From Paracoccaceae bacterium (GTDB lineage Bacteria > Pseudomonadota > Alphaproteobacteria > Rhodobacterales > Rhodobacteraceae), in contig REBU01000078.1 of NCBI GenBank assembly GCA_007692585.1, forward strand, positions 33,461 through 97,460: a DNA stretch of 64,000 nt, in the 5' to 3' direction. The translations under genes and the position numbers were made by a program. Positions 47,243 through 55,895 of this stretch are shown here, piece after piece (position 1 is the stretch's first letter; every line of letters begins with the position of its first letter). A model generated the notes under the pieces. That model searched no databases. It was not told the origin of the DNA and saw nothing but the letters and a program-made list of their open reading frames with translations.

Positions 47243-48541
47243 TTATGTGCGCCGGTTCAGCCAGGCTTCAAGGTGATCGCGCAACTCTGCAGCAAGCGCA
47301 TGATCGTCGATCTCGTCCAGCGCTTCGGCGAGAAATGCCAGCACCAACAGCATCCGCGCCTGCGCTTCCGGCACGCCGCGCGCGCGCAGGTAGAAGAACT
47401 GGTTCGCGTCAATCTCGCCCGATGTCGATCCATGCGAACATTTCACGTCATCTGCGTAAATCTCAAGCTCTGGCTTGGCCAGAAATTGCGCATCTTCGTT
47501 CAGAAGCAGGGACTGGCTGATCTGGTACCCATCCGTGAGCTGGGCAATCTGATCGACCAGAATCTTGCCCTGAAACACACCGACCGCCCCATGTCGCAGG
47601 ACCTTTTTATACACCTGGCGGCTTTCACAGCGCGGTGCGGCATGGTTCACGAACACTGTGTCATCGTGGTGAAACGCACCGTCGCCGACACAGGCCCCTG
47701 CGATATGCGCCGTGCCATCGCTCCCATCGAGCCAGATCACCGCCTCGTTGCGCGTCAATGCGCCATTGGCTGAGAGGGTGAAAGACTTCAACTGCGCTTT
47801 CGCTCCAAGGCGTGCGAAAAGATGCGTGGCCCCGACGCGCTCGTGATCGCGACCCTGCGCGCGGATATGATTCAGCACCGCACCTTCGCCAAGGTCGATT
47901 TCGGTGACCTGATTGTAGCGCGCTGCCACAGGTCCATCTTCCAGAAGCGTCAGTTCCGCCCCTGCGTCGAGCCGGATCACATGATGCATCAAGGCGTCGG
48001 CTGTGTCTTGACTGCGACGGTAGATCAATGCCAGCGGGCGCGGGGCCTTTCCCGCCACGCGGATCAGCACCCCATTGGTCGCGAAAGCCGTGTTCAGGCT
48101 GGCCAGAGGGCGCGAGATGGGTGTCTGACCCCGCGCCTCAAGCACGCCATAAATATCGCGCGCCCAATGCAGGTCGCTACGCGCCGCGTCACGAAGCTGG
48201 CTGATCTCTGCACCGGCAAGCTCCGGCGCGTCGGAAGCTTCTGCATCAAACACCCCATCGACGAAAACCAGCTTCACCCGGTCCACTCGATCAAAAAGTG
48301 GCAGCGCGTCGCCGGTGTCATGCAAGACCGCAGGCTGCACTGTGCTTTCTGTCAGACGACGTGGATCCGTGTAGCGCCAGTATTCATCACGTTTGCTGGG
48401 CATGCCCATATCGCGCAACCGGTCCTCCGCAGCCTTACGGGCTTTGGTCGCCCAAACACCCCCCTCCGGGAGCGCGCGCCCGTCCAGCCAGGTGACCGCC
48501 GCATCGCGCTTTTGTTGAACAAGTTTCGCGCGCGGTATCAT
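47243..48541 (-). CDS. sufD: Fe-S cluster assembly protein SufD
   Basis: Partner of SufB in the SufBC2D scaffold that builds Fe-S clusters. 432 residues, with SKRDEYWRYTDPRRL near the N-terminus, the beta-helix core, and the C-terminal CSHGSTSGEIDANQFFYLRARGVPEAQAR motif shared with SufB. It overlaps sufC by 4 bp. Confidence 0.93.
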   Translation of the reverse strand: MIPRAKLVQQKRDAAVTWLDGRALPEGGVWATKARKAAEDRLRDMGMPSKRDEYWRYTDPRRLTESTVQPAVLHDTGDALPLFDRVDRVKLVFVDGVFDAEASDAPELAGAEISQLRDAARSDLHWARDIYGVLEARGQTPISRPLASLNTAFATNGVLIRVAGKAPRPLALIYRRSQDTADALMHHVIRLDAGAELTLLEDGPVAARYNQVTEIDLGEGAVLNHIRAQGRDHERVGATHLFARLGAKAQLKSFTLSANGALTRNEAVIWLDGSDGTAHIAGACVGDGAFHHDDTVFVNHAAPRCESRQVYKKVLRHGAVGVFQGKILVDQIAQLTDGYQISQSLLLNEDAQFLAKPELEIYADDVKCSHGSTSGEIDANQFFYLRARGVPEAQARMLLVLAFLAEALDEIDDHALAAELRDHLEAWLNRRT

Positions 48542-49299
48542 GCAGCAGCCTCCGCCAGCAGATCTGTGTACCCGTTTTCTTCGACTTCAAGCGCCAGTTC
48601 GGGACCACCCGACTTGATGATGCGCCCATCGGACATGATATGCACGAAATCAGGTTTGATATGGTTCAGAAGTCTTTGATAATGCGTGATTACCAGGAAA
48701 GAGCGGCCCGCATCGCGCAGCGCATTCACGCCGTCGGACACAAGCTTCATCGCGTCCACATCGAGGCCGGAATCCGTCTCGTCAAGAATGCACATCTTCG
48801 GCTCGAGCATCGCCATCTGCAAAATCTCGTTGCGCTTCTTCTCGCCACCGGAAAAGCCCACATTGACCGGCCGCTTGAGCATATCCGCGTCGATCTGCAA
48901 CTCGTTGGCCTTGGCCCGGACGACTTTCAGGAATTCGCCAGCCGACAGTTCAGCCTCTCCCCGCGCCTTGCGCTGCGCATTCACAGCCGTCCGCAGGAAC
49001 GTCATGTTGCCGACGCCCGGTATCTCGACAGGATACTGAAACGCCAGAAAGAGGCCCGATGCGGCGCGTTCTTCCGGCTCCATCTCCAATAGATCAACAC
49101 CCTCAAGCGTTGCGCCGCCTTCGGTCACAGCATAGCCGTCACGCCCAGACAGCACATAAGACAGCGTCGATTTTCCAGACCCATTGGGCCCCATGATCGC
49201 ATGCACCTCGCCGGGATTGATCGTCAGCGAAAAACCCTTCAGGATCTTCACTTCAGAATCTTCTTCAAGTTCGGCATGCAGGTTGTTGATATTCAGCAT
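48538..49299 (-). CDS. sufC: Fe-S cluster assembly ATPase SufC
   Basis: Soluble ABC-type ATPase of the SufBCD scaffold. Walker A MGPNGSGKST, signature VGFSGGEKKRNEI and Walker B MCILDETDSGLD, which has the SufC-specific DETDSGLD form. The start at 49299 (MLNINNLHAEL) is chosen over the track's. 253 residues. The 4-bp overlap with sufD suggests coupled expression. Confidence 0.96.
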   Translation of the reverse strand: MLNINNLHAELEEDSEVKILKGFSLTINPGEVHAIMGPNGSGKSTLSYVLSGRDGYAVTEGGATLEGVDLLEMEPEERAASGLFLAFQYPVEIPGVGNMTFLRTAVNAQRKARGEAELSAGEFLKVVRAKANELQIDADMLKRPVNVGFSGGEKKRNEILQMAMLEPKMCILDETDSGLDVDAMKLVSDGVNALRDAGRSFLVITHYQRLLNHIKPDFVHIMSDGRIIKSGGPELALEVEENGYTDLLAEAAA

Positions 49300-49329
49300 T
49301 TTATTGATCCTCGTCATTCCAAAGCGGGC

Positions 49330-50841
49330 TTAACCCACCGATCCTTCCAGCGAGATCGCGACCAGCGCCTGCGCTTCCATGGCGAATTCCATTGGCAATT
49401 CCTGCAGAACTTCCCTGCAGAACCCATTCACCACAAGCGCCACGGCTTCTTCCTCATCCATGCCCCGCTGCCGGCAATAAAACAGCTGGTCATCATCGAC
49501 TTTGGATGTCGTCGCTTCATGCTCGACGCGACTGGAAGCATTGCGCACCTCGATGTAAGGCACCGTATGGGCTCCGCATTTGTCCCCTATCAGCAAACTG
49601 TCGCATTGCGTGTAATTGCGGCTCGACGTGGCTTTCGGATGCATCGAAACCAACCCACGATAGGTGTTCTGCGCATGGCCTGCTGAAATCCCCTTGGAAA
49701 CAATCCGCGAGCGGGTATTCTTGCCCAGATGCACCATCTTGGTGCCGGTATCGGCCTGCTGCCAGTTATTGGCGATGGCGATCGAATAGAATTCGCCCTG
49801 GCTGTCATCACCGCGCAGAATGCAGGACGGGTATTTCCAGGTGATCGCCGAGCCGGTCTCAACCTGCGTCCACATCACCTTGGCCCGCGCCTCGCGGCAA
49901 TCGGCGCGCTTGGTGACAAAATTATAAATGCCGCCCTTGCCGTTCTCATCGCCAGGGAACCAGTTCTGAACCGTGGAATACTTCACCTCGGCATCTTCCA
50001 GCACGACGATTTCCACCACGGCGGCGTGCAACTGGGTGGTGTCCCGTTTTGGGGCCGTGCAGCCTTCGAGATAGCTGACATGGCTGCCTTTTTCGGCGAC
50101 GATCAATGTGCGCTCGAACTGGCCGGTATTCTCGGCATTGATCCGGAAATAGGTGGACAGCTCCATCGGGCATCTCACGCCTGCCGGGATGTAGACGAAA
50201 CTCCCATCGGAAAACACTGCGGAGTTAAGCGCGGCGAAATAGTTGTCATTCTGCGGAACGACCGAACCAAGATACTTCTTCACCAGTTCCGGGTGGTCCT
50301 GAACCGCCTCCGATATTGAACAGAAAATGACCCCCGCCGCTGCGAGCTCTTTCTTAAAGGTTGTGCCCAGGCTGACGGAATCGAATACAGCATCAACAGC
50401 AACCTTACGCGGCTCATCCGCGCCTTCGACCCCTGCGAGCACCATCTGCTCTTTCAACGGAATCCCGAGTTTTGCATAGGTTTCCAGCAGCTTGGGATCA
50501 ACATCGTCGAGCGATTTCGGCTTTTCTTCCATCGACTTGGGCTTGGCGTAGTAATACTGCTCCTGATAGTCGATTTCAGGGATCTTCAGCATCGCCCAGT
50601 CAGGGCTTTCCATGGTCAGCCAGCGTCGATAGGCATCCAGCCGCCATTCGAGCAGCCATTCGGGTTCGTTGTTTTTCTTGGAAATCAACCGCACGATGTC
50701 TTCATTCAGACCCTTCGGCGCGAACTCCATCTCGATCTCGGTTTCCCAGCCGTGCTTGTAAGTGCCCGCCATGGATTGCACGGTTTCCACGGTTTCGCGG
50801 TCCACGCCGTCACGAAGCTGCGTCTCGTCCAGGGCTACCAT
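49330..50841 (-). CDS. sufB: Fe-S cluster assembly protein SufB
   Basis: Core of the SufBC2D scaffold where [4Fe-4S] clusters form. SufB hallmarks include the [24 protein letters not shown] block, [25 protein letters not shown]-unrelated C-terminal [20 protein letters not shown], and [13 protein letters not shown]. The start is set at the ATG at 50841 (MVALDETQL), which has AGAGGA 5 nt upstream; the ATG five codons earlier at 50856 is possible but lacks a good ribosome-binding site and abuts the iscS-like stop. Confidence 0.94.
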
Positions 50842-50856
50842 GTCATTCCTCTTCAT

Positions 50857-51906
50857 CTATGCCGCCCGGCTTTCAAAGCGGCGATACTCTCTCAGCCACG
50901 CATCTGCGAAGCGCAGCACATCCTCTTCGGTCGTCTTGGGTCCCAATGAGACCCGGATTGCCCCGCGCGCCACGTCTTCACTGTGACCCATCGCCTGCAA
51001 TACCCCCGACGCGCGCAGCTTGCCCGATGAACAGGCCGAGCCCGCGGAGATCGCGAAGCCCGCGAGATCCATCTGCATCACCTGCGTTTCGGCCTTCCAG
51101 CCCGGCGTCGCGAGACAAAGCGTGTTGGGCAAACGATTTGCACCATATCCGACCAAAATAGTCTTGTTTGCCGCCGAGTCCAGAGCCTGTTCTAGAATAT
51201 TTCTAATTACAGATACAGAATTCCAGACCCCATCGGCAAGCTCTTTTGCCGCAACCTCTGCGGCAGCGCCAAAACCCGCGATCCCGATCAGGTTTTCAGT
51301 TCCGGCGCGCCGCCCCATCTCCTGCCCACCGCCGCGCAATTGCGCCGCGATATCGGTGCCACGCTTCATGACCAGCGCGCCTACGCCCTTGGGACCACCC
51401 ATCTTATGCGCCGAAACGAACCCCATCTCGACCCCCAGCCAATTGAAGGCGAAGGGCAGCTTGCCAAATCCCTGCGTCAGATCACTGACCGCAAGACCCT
51501 GCGGCAAGTCCTGCACGATCCCGGTTTCGGAATTTGCCAGCTGCAAGGTCGCGCTGGACGGATCAGGCACGGACACGCGCCCGTCCCCGTCCACAGCAAG
51601 CGTGTCCGCCACCCAGGCGCGCACAGCGTCATGTTCGATCGCAGCCCCTGACAGCCCCCGCCCGGCCAGCGCCAGCCCAGCCGCTTCGGTTGCGCCCGAG
51701 GTGAAGATGATCTCTGCTCCATCCGCCCCCAACGCCGCTGCAACCTGCGCCCGCGCGCGCTCTATCAAGCCACGCGCGGCACGGCCCTCGGCATGGACGG
51801 ATGAAGGGTTGCCAAACACATCCATCGCCGCGACCATCGCCAACCGCGCCTCGTCGCGCAGGGGCGTCGTGGCGTTATGATCCAGATAGACCCGCGCGCG
51901 CGTCAT
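50857..51906 (-). CDS. cysteine desulfurase, NifS/IscS-like (group I)
   Basis: PLP-dependent desulfurase of 349 residues, second in the iscR-suf operon. VYLDHNATTPLRDEA opens it; IIFTSGATEA, QLANSETGIVQDLP and the PLP Lys in VSAHKMGGPKGVGAL follow. The catalytic Cys loop SAGSACSSGKLRASGVL has the group I extended loop. Two desulfurases (this and SufS) thus flank SufBCD. It is shorter than E. coli IscS and several residues after the Lys region differ; it may serve another acceptor. Confidence 0.92.
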   Translation of the reverse strand: MTRARVYLDHNATTPLRDEARLAMVAAMDVFGNPSSVHAEGRAARGLIERARAQVAAALGADGAEIIFTSGATEAAGLALAGRGLSGAAIEHDAVRAWVADTLAVDGDGRVSVPDPSSATLQLANSETGIVQDLPQGLAVSDLTQGFGKLPFAFNWLGVEMGFVSAHKMGGPKGVGALVMKRGTDIAAQLRGGGQEMGRRAGTENLIGIAGFGAAAEVAAKELADGVWNSVSVIRNILEQALDSAANKTILVGYGANRLPNTLCLATPGWKAETQVMQMDLAGFAISAGSACSSGKLRASGVLQAMGHSEDVARGAIRVSLGPKTTEEDVLRFADAWLREYRRFESRAA

Positions 51907-51930
51907 TGCGCTGCCACTCTACTCAAGGCG

Positions 51931-52389
51931 CTACTCATCAACGATTTCAAACAGTGTCGGGACCGCCGGACAGGGCGTCAAGGCATTGCGGGCAACATCT
52001 GACAGGCGCGTCTGATGCAGAAACACATAGACATGCGCAGACATGCTTTCCCACAGCCTGTTGGTCATGGATTGCGCACGCGAACCCGACACGGCCCCCG
52101 ACGCCCCGGCACCCGTGTGCAGCGCGCTGACAGTCTCGTCCACAGCGGCGAACACTTCTGAAACCCGGATTGCATCTGCAGGCTGGGCCAGCTTGTAACC
52201 ACCACCCGGCCCACGCACGGAGGTCACGATCCCGGCACGGCGCAGCTTCACGAACAGCTGTTCCAGATAGGCCAGCGACACATTCTGACGCGCCGAGATT
52301 TCGTTGAGCGAAACCAGCACATCTTCCGGTGCAAGCGCGAGATCGACAAGCGCGATCATCGCGTAGCGACCTTTGGTCGATAACTTCAT
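51931..52389 (-). CDS. iscR: Rrf2-family Fe-S/iron-responsive regulator IscR
   Basis: 152-residue winged-helix regulator, first gene of the suf operon. MKLSTKGRYAMIALVDLAL, SLNEISARQNVSLAYLEQLFVKLRRAG and VRGPGGGYKLAQP are Rrf2/IscR hallmarks. The region that holds three cluster cysteines in E. coli IscR reads SALHTGAGASGAVSGSRAQS and has none. The only Cys is at residue 140 (ALTPCPAVPT). A single-Cys IscR has been described in Rhodobacter sphaeroides, so cluster binding by other ligands is possible. The track start is trimmed to 52389. Confidence 0.93.
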   Translation of the reverse strand: MKLSTKGRYAMIALVDLALAPEDVLVSLNEISARQNVSLAYLEQLFVKLRRAGIVTSVRGPGGGYKLAQPADAIRVSEVFAAVDETVSALHTGAGASGAVSGSRAQSMTNRLWESMSAHVYVFLHQTRLSDVARNALTPCPAVPTLFEIVDE

Positions 52390-52521
52390 GCTCCAGCTCC
52401 CTGACGCGCGACTCAAGCCCTGCCGGGCAAGCTGCGCAGACCGCAAATTCGGTTGACGATAGCGGGCGTCGCGCCTAAACCCATCGTGTCATGTTCCGCC
52501 ACTGATGATAAATGCCCGCAA

Positions 52522-52638: not shown

Positions 52639-53298
52639 ATGCCCGAAATTATCTTTCCCGGCCCCGAAGGTCGCCTTGAAGGCCGCTTTCACCCCCAGCC
52701 AAAATCGGACGCCCCAATCGCGATTGTTCTGCACCCGCATCCACAGTTCGGTGGCACCATGAACAACAAGGTTGTCTACAACCTGCATTACGCGTTCTAC
52801 AAAATGGGCTTCACAGTGCTGCGCTTCAATTTTCGCGGCGTCGGACGCTCACAAGGCGAATATGATCAGGGGATCGGGGAATTATCCGATGCCGCTGCAG
52901 CCCTCGACTATGTTCAGGCGCAAAGCCAGAATGCGCGGCACTGCTGGGTTGCGGGCTTCAGTTTCGGCGCCTGGATCGGCATGCAGCTGCTGATGCGCAG
53001 ACCCGATATCACGGGCTTCATCTCGGTGTCTCCGCCGGCCAATCTCTATGATTTCAGCTTCCTTGCCCCCTGCCCGGCTTCCGGGTTGATCATCAATGGC
53101 AGCGCTGACCGCGTGGCCCCGCCGCGAGATACGAAAACGCTGGTCGGAAAGCTGCAGGAGCAGCGCGGCATCACCATTACCCATACCGAGATCGAAGGTG
53201 CTGATCACTTTTTCAAGGATGAAGATCGCCATATGCAGCCGATGCTTGGGACCGTGACCGACTACGTCACCCGCCGCCTGTCCGAAACGACGCGCTGA
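52639..53298 (+). CDS. alpha/beta hydrolase
   Basis: 219-residue single-domain hydrolase. HPHPQFGGTMNNKVV near residue 34 carries the oxyanion-region HPHP motif of the family sometimes labelled dienelactone-hydrolase-like. The nucleophile elbow is GFSFGA (Ser about residue 115), the acid is near NGSADRVAPP, and the His in EGADHFF. The substrate is unknown. It is divergent from iscR, sharing a 250-bp gap with the iron-box promoter, and lies upstream of the TetR gene. Confidence 0.85.
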   Translation: MPEIIFPGPEGRLEGRFHPQPKSDAPIAIVLHPHPQFGGTMNNKVVYNLHYAFYKMGFTVLRFNFRGVGRSQGEYDQGIGELSDAAAALDYVQAQSQNARHCWVAGFSFGAWIGMQLLMRRPDITGFISVSPPANLYDFSFLAPCPASGLIINGSADRVAPPRDTKTLVGKLQEQRGITITHTEIEGADHFFKDEDRHMQPMLGTVTDYVTRRLSETTR

Positions 53299-53342: not shown

Positions 53343-53355
53343 TGAACGCAGTTCA
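53343..53355. promoter_or_regulatory. TetR operator, copy 1 (upstream of the tetR gene)
   Basis: TGAACGCAGTTCA is an inverted repeat TGAAC-GCA-GTTCA (7-bp arms if flanks are counted: CGTGAAC/GTTCACG) ending 12 bp before the tetR ATG. The same pattern recurs three times upstream of the pspA-like gene. Its position suggests autorepression. Confidence 0.75.
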
Positions 53356-53367
53356 CGCGAGGGCAGG

Positions 53368-53952
53368 ATGGCACGGATACCCCGAGACGACTTACGTAAG
53401 CGGCTTGTCGAAATCGCCGAGAGAACGATCCATAACGATGGCATTTCGGGGCTGCGCGCGCGCGACCTGGCGCGCGAGGCAGGCTGTGCCCTTGGTGCGA
53501 TCTACAATGTCTTTGCTGATCTGAACCAGCTCGTTCTCGCCGTGAATGGCCGGACTTTTCTGCGCCTTGGTGCCGAAGTGCGGCAAGGCGTCGATGCCTG
53601 CCCGGCAGAAAACGCGGAAGATCAGCTTGTGGCCATGGCGCTGGCCTATCGCAATTTCGCGACCGAAAATCGCAACCTGTGGCTTGCGCTTTTTGATCTT
53701 CGCCTGAGCAGCGATGATGAAGTGCCAGATTGGTATTGGCGCGAAATGGGCACCTTGTTCGAGATTATCGCCGCCCCGCTGCGCCGCCTGCAACCCGAGA
53801 CATCGCCGGAAGATCTCGACCTGTTGGTGCGGACCCTGTTTTCGGCTGTCCATGGGATTGTCCTGCTGGGCGTTGAAAAACGTATCTCCGGTGTGCCTGA
53901 TGCACGGGTCGCACAGATGCTCCGGCTCCTGATCACCAAAACAATCAGCTGA
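53368..53952 (+). CDS. TetR family transcriptional regulator
   Basis: 194 residues. N-terminal TetR domain: RKRLVEIAERTIHNDG then SGLRARDLAREAGCALGAIYNVFAD, the helix-turn-helix with the YNVF variant of the usual YxHF. The C-terminal ligand domain (NRNLWLALFDLRLSSDDEVPDWYW, ... LFSAVHGIVLLGV) is of the WHG/TetR_C-13-like kind. The ATG at 53368 is preceded by AGG at a fair distance, and the track extension overlaps operator copy 1. Four identical-pattern operators in 700 bp imply it controls itself and the pspA-yiaA pair. The ligand is unknown. Confidence 0.87.
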   Translation: MARIPRDDLRKRLVEIAERTIHNDGISGLRARDLAREAGCALGAIYNVFADLNQLVLAVNGRTFLRLGAEVRQGVDACPAENAEDQLVAMALAYRNFATENRNLWLALFDLRLSSDDEVPDWYWREMGTLFEIIAAPLRRLQPETSPEDLDLLVRTLFSAVHGIVLLGVEKRISGVPDARVAQMLRLLITKTIS

Positions 53953-53965
53953 CGTTACGTCATTT

Positions 53966-54035
53966 TGAACGTCGTTCATTTTACTATTGAACGGCGTTCA
54001 CGAATCGACTACTCCAAGGTTGTGAACGATGTTCA
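53966..54035. promoter_or_regulatory. three TetR operator copies upstream of the pspA-like gene
   Basis: TGAACGTCGTTCA (53966-53978), TGAACGGCGTTCA (53988-54000) and TGAACGATGTTCA (54023-54035) repeat the tetR-upstream palindrome with only the central bases changed. Start-to-start spacing is 22 and 35 bp. The first two are preceded by TT, giving TTGAAC, close to a -35 hexamer. The last ends 15 bp before the pspA-like ATG. This cluster should allow tight repression by several dimers. Confidence 0.8.
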
Positions 54036-54050
54036 AGAAAGGAAGTCGGA

Positions 54051-54716
54051 ATGTTTGGAACGCTCAAGACCTTGTTTGCCAGCGCCAATGCCCGCGCCGA
54101 AGAACAGCTCCGCGACAGTTACGCGCTGGACCTGATCGCCCAGAAGATCCGCGAGGCCGAGGCCGGGCAGAACGCCGCCAAGGCCACTCTCGCCGCACTG
54201 ATCCAGCGCCAACGGCTAGAGCGCAATCAATTCGATGCCCTGCAGCGGCGCATCGCTGATATGAGCCAGCGGATCGAAGCGGCGTTAGAAAAGGAGCGTA
54301 TGGACCTCGCCCAGCCTGCCGCTGAAGCGCTCGCGCGGATGGAGACTGAGGCCGAGGGTCGCGCGGCCTTGATGGAAAAGCTCGACGCCCGCATCCTGCG
54401 CCTGCGCAACGCCGTCGAGGCCGCCCATCGCAGGCTGCAGGATCTGCGCATGGGCCAGGTTCAGGCCCGCGCCATCCGGCAAGAGCGCACCGCCACTGCG
54501 CGGCTAAAAACCACTGGCCTGTCGCCGCTCGATGAGGCGCGCGATCTGATTGCCCGCGTCACAAATGAAGAAGACCCCATCGAGCGCGCCGAAATCATGG
54601 ACGAGATCAATCGCGACCTGAGCGACGAGTCACTGACCGACCGCATGAGCGCGGCCGGGATCGGTGCACCGACGCGGATCACTGCCGAAGCTGTGCTCGC
54701 GCGCTTCAAGAAATGA
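54051..54716 (+). CDS. pspA: PspA/IM30 family protein
   Basis: 221 residues, almost entirely helical with an amphipathic N-terminus (MFGTLKTLFASANARAEEQL) and long coiled coils (QRQRLERNQFDALQRRIADM; RLRNAVEAAHRRLQDLRMGQ). This is the layout of PspA/IM30/Vipp1 proteins, ESCRT-III relatives that coat and protect the inner membrane under stress. AAGGAAG precedes the ATG. No PspB/C or PspF gene is present; instead three TetR-type operators lie directly upstream and a YiaA-like gene follows. Confidence 0.85.
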   Translation: MFGTLKTLFASANARAEEQLRDSYALDLIAQKIREAEAGQNAAKATLAALIQRQRLERNQFDALQRRIADMSQRIEAALEKERMDLAQPAAEALARMETEAEGRAALMEKLDARILRLRNAVEAAHRRLQDLRMGQVQARAIRQERTATARLKTTGLSPLDEARDLIARVTNEEDPIERAEIMDEINRDLSDESLTDRMSAAGIGAPTRITAEAVLARFKK

Positions 54717-54746
54717 TCACACCCTCATATCTGAAAGGAAATCACC

Positions 54747-55022
54747 ATGACTACGCAGAACACCGACAACAGCCTGATTATCAATTTCAATCTCGCCGGG
54801 GTTATCCTGTCTTATGTTTTCCTTGGCCTGTCGCTCTGGATCAACACGGATGTCAGCCTGTCGACCAAAGGGTTCTGGGGCCTTGCTGTGGTCATGCTGA
54901 CCATGAGCCTTGTGAATTTCGTGAAATACAAATTCGATGCCCGCATCGCGTCAGAGCGTTTATCGCAGCTTGAACTGGCCAAGAACGAAAAGCTGCTCTC
55001 GGAATTCGTAGACCGGCCCTGA
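54747..55022 (+). CDS. yiaA: YiaA/YiaB family two-helix membrane protein
   Basis: 91 residues with two membrane helices (IINFNLAGVILSYVFLGLSLWI and GFWGLAVVMLTMSLVNFVKY). This is the YiaAB two-helix domain. AAAGGAA lies upstream. It follows the pspA-like gene by 30 bp in the same direction. In published comparative work YiaAB proteins are listed among PspA partners, to my memory. Function otherwise unknown. Confidence 0.82.
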   Translation: MTTQNTDNSLIINFNLAGVILSYVFLGLSLWINTDVSLSTKGFWGLAVVMLTMSLVNFVKYKFDARIASERLSQLELAKNEKLLSEFVDRP

Positions 55023-55166
55023 GCCGTTGCCAAGCCCGCGCCCGCCCTTCCACCCAAGGGCGGGATAGCTTTTGCAGCGCAGCAGAGTCGCGCCCCTGTG
55101 TCGTGAATTGCCCCGCCCCAACCCATGCGCTATGTCAGCCCGGTGACACCAGAAAGGCTCTAACCG

Positions 55167-55895
55167 ATGCTGCGCCCTGCCCGCCTCTCACTTGCGCTTG
55201 TCGCGGTCCTGTTCTCGGCCGCCTGCACCCTGGCTCCGCTGCCACCCATCCCTGCGCCCGGCACCCAACAACAACAGACCCAAGGCGCGGCCAGCACACG
55301 CGCCGATTTCAACGCGGTGGTCGCGCGCATGCAGCCTGTCGCCACACAGATCTGCCGCGAACGCAGCCCGCAACTGAATTGTGTCTTCACAGTGGTCCTC
55401 GATGACCGCCCTAATCTGCCCCCAAACGCCTTTCATACGCGCGACGAGCAGGGCCGCCCGATCATTGCCTTCACCGAAACACTGATCCGCGAATTGCGCT
55501 CTCGCGATGAAATCGCGCTGATCTTCGGCCATGAAGCCGCCCATCATATCGCCGATCACATCCCCCGTATCCAGCGCGAGGCGCGCACCGGCGCGCTTCT
55601 GGGCGGACTGGCGGCGGCGCTGGTTGGGGCAGATCCTGGCACGACACGGCAGATCATGTCGGCCACGGCGACTGTAGGCGCGCGGCGCTATTCCAAACCT
55701 TTCGAGCTGGAGGCCGACCGCATCGGCGCGCTGATTGCCGAACGCGGCGGGTTTGATGCCCTGCGCGGGGCGCAAATCTTCCGACGCATCCCCGATCCCG
55801 GCAATCAGTTTCTCGGCACCCACCCACCCAATGCCGAACGCCTGCGCGAAGTCGAACGCGCCGTGGCCCGCATCCGCGCGGGCGAACCTGTCTGA
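55167..55895 (+). CDS. M48 family lipoprotein metallopeptidase
   Basis: 242 residues with a signal peptide and lipobox LFSAAC (Cys about residue 20). The catalytic zinc site is HEAAH in IFGHEAAHHIADH (HExxH), with the third ligand Glu in FELEADRIGAL. C-terminal THPPNAERLREVERA fits the BepA/LoiP-type M48 group, which act on outer-membrane proteins. Substrate unknown. Four genes on in the same direction follow to typA. Confidence 0.9.
   Translation: MLRPARLSLALVAVLFSAACTLAPLPPIPAPGTQQQQTQGAASTRADFNAVVARMQPVATQICRERSPQLNCVFTVVLDDRPNLPPNAFHTRDEQGRPIIAFTETLIRELRSRDEIALIFGHEAAHHIADHIPRIQREARTGALLGGLAAALVGADPGTTRQIMSATATVGARRYSKPFELEADRIGALIAERGGFDALRGAQIFRRIPDPGNQFLGTHPPNAERLREVERAVARIRAGEPV

Follow-up and report, generated by a model that had tools for sequence, protein, structure and literature searches.

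Beyond enterobacteria, Firmicutes, and Actinobacteria, little has been established about the induction of PspA. Enterobacterial PspA is controlled through PspF, a sigma-54 activator. The window analysed here, a stretch of 64,000 nt from a Paracoccaceae genome whose closest named relatives are Natronohydrobacter, carries a pspA-like gene next to a tetR gene and several copies of one palindrome, which raises the question of what controls this membrane-stress protein and to which signal the control responds.

The three genes of the cassette lie on the plus strand. The first, tetR (53368-53952), encodes a TetR-family repressor of 194 aa with TetR_N and TetR_C_33 domains, an assignment based on Pfam, a structure model, and orthologues: TetR_C_33 was matched above its cut-off (5e-12) and TetR_N just under it (21.3 bits, cut-off 24). 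Among solved structures, the model (pLDDT 94.5) most resembles PDB 3cjd, a Jannaschia protein with 49% identity (TM 0.90/0.96) that carries no annotation beyond putative TetR regulator and is mentioned in no paper found by our literature search; FasR and KstR are among its other structural neighbors. The second gene, pspA (54051-54716), encodes a PspA/IM30 (ESCRT-III-like) family protein of 221 aa, matched by PF04012 over residues 4-220 with 42.7 bits against a cut-off of 33.9; all 40 of its homologues match the family too. The best Foldseek matches of its model were Vipp1/PspA proteins, with modest E-values (1.5e-3 or weaker), and superposition on 4whe, the E. coli PspA structure, gave an rmsd of 1.5 across 117 columns and revealed the long helical-hairpin fold. 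It is the single PspA gene of its genome. The names that the earlier note on this DNA gave to the regulator and to pspA are thus supported. The gene that it assigned to a YiaA two-helix protein (54747-55022, 91 aa, inner membrane) is best described as YiaA-like: the window protein scored 21.7 bits with PF05360, under the cut-off of 26.6, whereas 18 of 20 aligned homologues matched the family (best 2e-12). An intrinsic-terminator-like hairpin (55041-55064, plus strand; 9-pair stem with 7 G-C pairs, followed by a T-rich tail) ends the pspA-yiaA unit.

A scan of the window found four TGAACNNNGTTCA palindromes, starting at 53343, 53966, 53988, and 54023, and none elsewhere in its 64,000 nt (six strand-counted matches against 0.04 expected). 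The putative operator of tetR itself, TGAACGCAGTTCA (53343-53355), is separated by 12 nt from the start codon of that gene (ATG at 53368); putative operators 1 (TGAACGTCGTTCA, 53966-53978), 2 (TGAACGGCGTTCA, 53988-54000), and 3 (TGAACGATGTTCA, 54023-54035) of pspA all lie inside the 98-nt gap at 53953-54050. Number, positions, distance, and gap length agree exactly with the earlier note, as does its statement that the pattern is confined to these sites in the window. The genome as a whole (3.26 Mb, 116 contigs) contains six copies of the relaxed pattern TGAACNNNGTTCA, four of them at the cassette; the random genome-wide density named in the earlier note as fatal to its proposal was not found. 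The two additional copies, one within a secY-like ORF and the other within an ORF for an outer-membrane protein (FadL/Omp-like), were rejected as regulatory targets since both lie within coding sequence, and the cassette is the sole target found in this genome.

We compared this arrangement with 298 genomes of the same family, taking E <= 1e-10 as the threshold for TetR orthologues. Such orthologues were present in 80 genomes and spaced site pairs in 55 (none with a reversed-pattern control), and the TetR orthologue is present in 54 of these 55 as well (Fisher p = 4e-38). Among 30 genomes tested, all seven PspA genes adjoin tetR, and the 13 genomes without a TetR match have no PspA. The layout is kept even though the relatives' TetR and PspA are mostly just 30-55% identical to the window proteins: 36 of 44 pspA promoters contain three sites, with sites 1 and 2 separated by 22 or 23 bp, sites 2 and 3 mostly by 34-35 bp (range 31-36), and the last site usually ending 11-19 nt before the ATG, while orthologous tetR genes usually have one site 8-21 nt before the ATG. 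Seven TetR-bearing genomes without the close pair retain the tetR site and only sites 1 and 3 of pspA, 56-58 bp apart. The palindromic operators at own and target promoters that are typical of TetR-family regulators are therefore present here, as judged by conservation, and this strong phylogenetic footprinting makes the four palindromes probable operators of the adjacent TetR. The operator pattern given in the earlier note needs one correction: the fixed G after TGAAC does not belong to the operator, as relatives show. An R-N-Y center occurs in 104 of 108 pspA sites vs. 12 of 43 tetR sites, and the looser centers of the latter suggest that the autoregulatory site is the weaker one.

The position of the sites relative to promoter-like elements indicates how repression could work. 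A putative -35 box, TTGAAC (53987-53992, plus strand), overlaps operator 2 and is found in 36 of 36 three-site promoters, and its TTGA is still present where site 2 has been lost (L020, L021). The putative -10 box, TACTCC (54010-54015, plus strand), is a weak match to the consensus in the window itself; many relatives have TATNNN here, and this TAT-type position, about 13 nt before operator 3, is conserved. Since a standard sigma-70 scan of the window found no promoter, the promoter assignment is based on conservation. Repression by occlusion is the natural reading, as operator 2 overlaps the -35-like box and operator 3 covers the likely transcription start; the layout also fits this mode in that site 1, in helical phase with site 2, is placed ahead of the -35 region.

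A new finding is that relatives carry these operators in front of phospholipid genes and other envelope genes as well. Genes encoding PlsC and CdsA come immediately after pspA or yiaA in five genomes (G032, G049, G081, G133, and G287), stand behind an operator beside tetR in G172, and occur in 4 of 16 long pspA loci (L141-L156). Counted together, these arrangements of genes for a PlsC-type acyltransferase and CdsA occur in six Rhodobacteraceae genomes (L121, L145, L148, L155, L156, and L111), L155 having an additional distant match to a CDP-alcohol phosphatidyltransferase. In other alphaproteobacterial families, the sites lie between tetR and genes of the Aas/LplT type, involved in lysophospholipid recycling (L045-L047), a CDP-alcohol phosphatidyltransferase gene (G479), or a fatty acid hydroxylase gene (G300). 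In two further genomes from such families, tetR-pspA-yiaA with its sites is followed by an Aas-type gene (G526) or accompanied by a second site pair at a CDP-alcohol phosphatidyltransferase gene (G533).

Other targets (DUF2145, VIT-vWA, and an uncharacterized membrane protein) belong to the envelope, yet are not lipid-synthesis genes. A polytopic membrane protein of ~400 aa is encoded behind operator pairs in seven genomes, some with pspA (L107, L113, L114, L117, L118, L119, and L120); a Pfam scan of two members (L107 and L114) matched no family, and no homolog was found in the window's own genome. A small Ala/Ser-rich secreted protein and a DUF2145 protein are encoded behind operators in three loci (L105, 4203-5308; L106, 4222-5430; L124, 4255-5451), with yiaA and a TetR-family gene on either side in L124; among genomes that have tetR without pspA, sites precede this pair in G135 and G272. 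A study of papain-like cysteine peptidases includes DUF2145 (PMC10318531). A VIT-vWA protein is encoded behind an operator pair in G172 (L112, 2062-4326), and a DUF2339 protein after a site pair in G054. Nearly all operator targets thus have membrane or envelope functions, many of them in phospholipid synthesis or recycling.

The best explanation of these data as a whole, to which we assign a probability of about 0.75, is that a self-regulated TetR keeps pspA-yiaA off until a ligand, most likely of lipid type, releases it. TetR dimers would bind one site at their own gene start, resulting in autoregulation, and three sites across the pspA promoter, where operators 2 and 3 would block the -35 box and the start region, while operator 1, approximately two helical turns upstream of operator 2, would suit cooperative binding on one DNA face. 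On disturbance of membrane lipid metabolism or integrity, the ligand would free the repressor, and PspA, which belongs to the ESCRT-III-like membrane-remodeling proteins, would be made together with the two-helix membrane protein YiaA. An acyl-chain or other lipid-derived molecule is our best guess for the ligand, at about even odds, because the relatives' operators precede phospholipid genes; the lipid link, and with it the indirect support for the lipid signal suggested in the earlier note, comes from some relatives and not from the window's own genome. Because this repressor and its operators are found in relatives ahead of genes for making phospholipids and recycling lysophospholipids, the module resembles a switch for membrane-lipid homeostasis.

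The same repressor and operators could instead respond to a foreign membrane-active compound, such as a drug or a quaternary ammonium compound, as in AcrR/QacR-type systems. Ligands of TetR proteins are often xenobiotics, and NCBIfam shows weak similarity of this TetR to BetI, AcrR, MtrR, and FabR alike, which suits such an inducer; we nevertheless regard it as unlikely, since the genes behind the operators in the various genomes serve lipid synthesis and membrane repair, no efflux pump was seen among the operator targets examined apart from LplT-type MFS proteins, and in the window the terminator-like hairpin sets the downstream genes apart.

The remaining alternatives dispense with either the small molecule or the regulator. 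If PspA or YiaA controlled TetR by direct contact, on leaving or on joining the membrane, the module would resemble the PspA-PspF pair of enterobacteria, and the adjacency of tetR and pspA in most loci would be expected. Orphan tetR genes, however, occur in genomes without any PspA, where most keep their conserved own site and more sites lie elsewhere; with tetR and its site retained in such genomes, the general signal cannot come from PspA, and direct contact appears improbable. Least plausible, and very improbable in our judgment, is that a different DNA-binding protein uses the palindromes, with the adjacent TetR as a bystander. Nothing specific favors this beyond the fact that more than one regulator family has TGAAC half-sites, and it conflicts with the presence of this TetR in 54 of the 55 genomes with site pairs, with the site that usually stays with tetR where pspA is gone, and with a search by pattern alone in other families, which returned to tetR-pspA-yiaA (G526, G533) or to a TetR of the same family (G300, G479, G503).

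Control by a TetR-type repressor would set this cassette apart from related Psp responses. In enterobacterial Psp (PspF-PspABC), as here, an inducible PspA-family protein and a small inner-membrane partner share one promoter beside the regulator gene; there, however, the regulator is the sigma-54 activator PspF and the partners are PspB/PspC, whereas here a TetR-type repressor with palindromic operators and a YiaA-like partner would take these places. In the window's own genome, a profile search found no PspF above the cut-off (best match 221 bits, cut-off 443.6) and PF04024 and PF06667 gave no match for PspB and PspC; PspF control of pspA was thus rejected, in line with the earlier proposal that PspF is not the regulator, and the cassette is a variant of the Psp-type response and not the classical system. 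The LiaFSR-liaIH system of Bacillus and ClgR-PspA of Mycobacterium likewise tie a PspA homolog to a clade-specific regulator and a membrane protein, using a two-component system or a Cro-type HTH regulator in contrast to the one-component TetR here. Lipid-sensing TetRs (FabR, DesT, FasR, FadR-type) share the fold and, in relatives, targets in lipid metabolism; they differ in that the main target here is pspA-yiaA and the nearest structure is 3cjd. The main texts of two broad Psp surveys make no mention of TetR (PMC11237479, PMC9239133), one of them noting that pspA is often near HTH regulators (PMC9239133), and our search of openly available articles, covering main texts, found nothing on PspA with YiaA or on a TetR-pspA-yiaA module. 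This points to a Psp response under an unusual regulator and a little-described route to membrane repair. Somewhat more tentatively, with the balance slightly against it, these loci may form a separate alphaproteobacterial Psp branch, in which one conserved operator code lets a lipid-sensing TetR connect an ESCRT-III-like repair protein with the synthesis of phospholipids and the recycling of lysophospholipids, the signal being the membrane-lipid state and not a PspBC/PspF relay. With a one-component TetR and an operator that is clean and can be searched for, common alphaproteobacteria offer a route open to direct testing. If the TetR ligand is a lipid, one circuit would join ESCRT-III-like membrane repair to the supply of phospholipids, and the identity of that ligand would show what PspA-type stress is in molecular terms.

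An M48-family peptidase gene (55167-55895) was rejected as a member of the cassette because it lies beyond the terminator-like hairpin, and is probably a separate transcription unit; among the loci compared, a counterpart was found in one close relative only. An alpha/beta hydrolase gene (52639-53298) was also rejected, being detected only in L036/L037. Further upstream lies an ordinary set of suf-type iron-sulfur genes (48538-52446; SufC-like, SufB-like, and cysteine desulfurase) with an Rrf2-family regulator at its head, on the minus strand.
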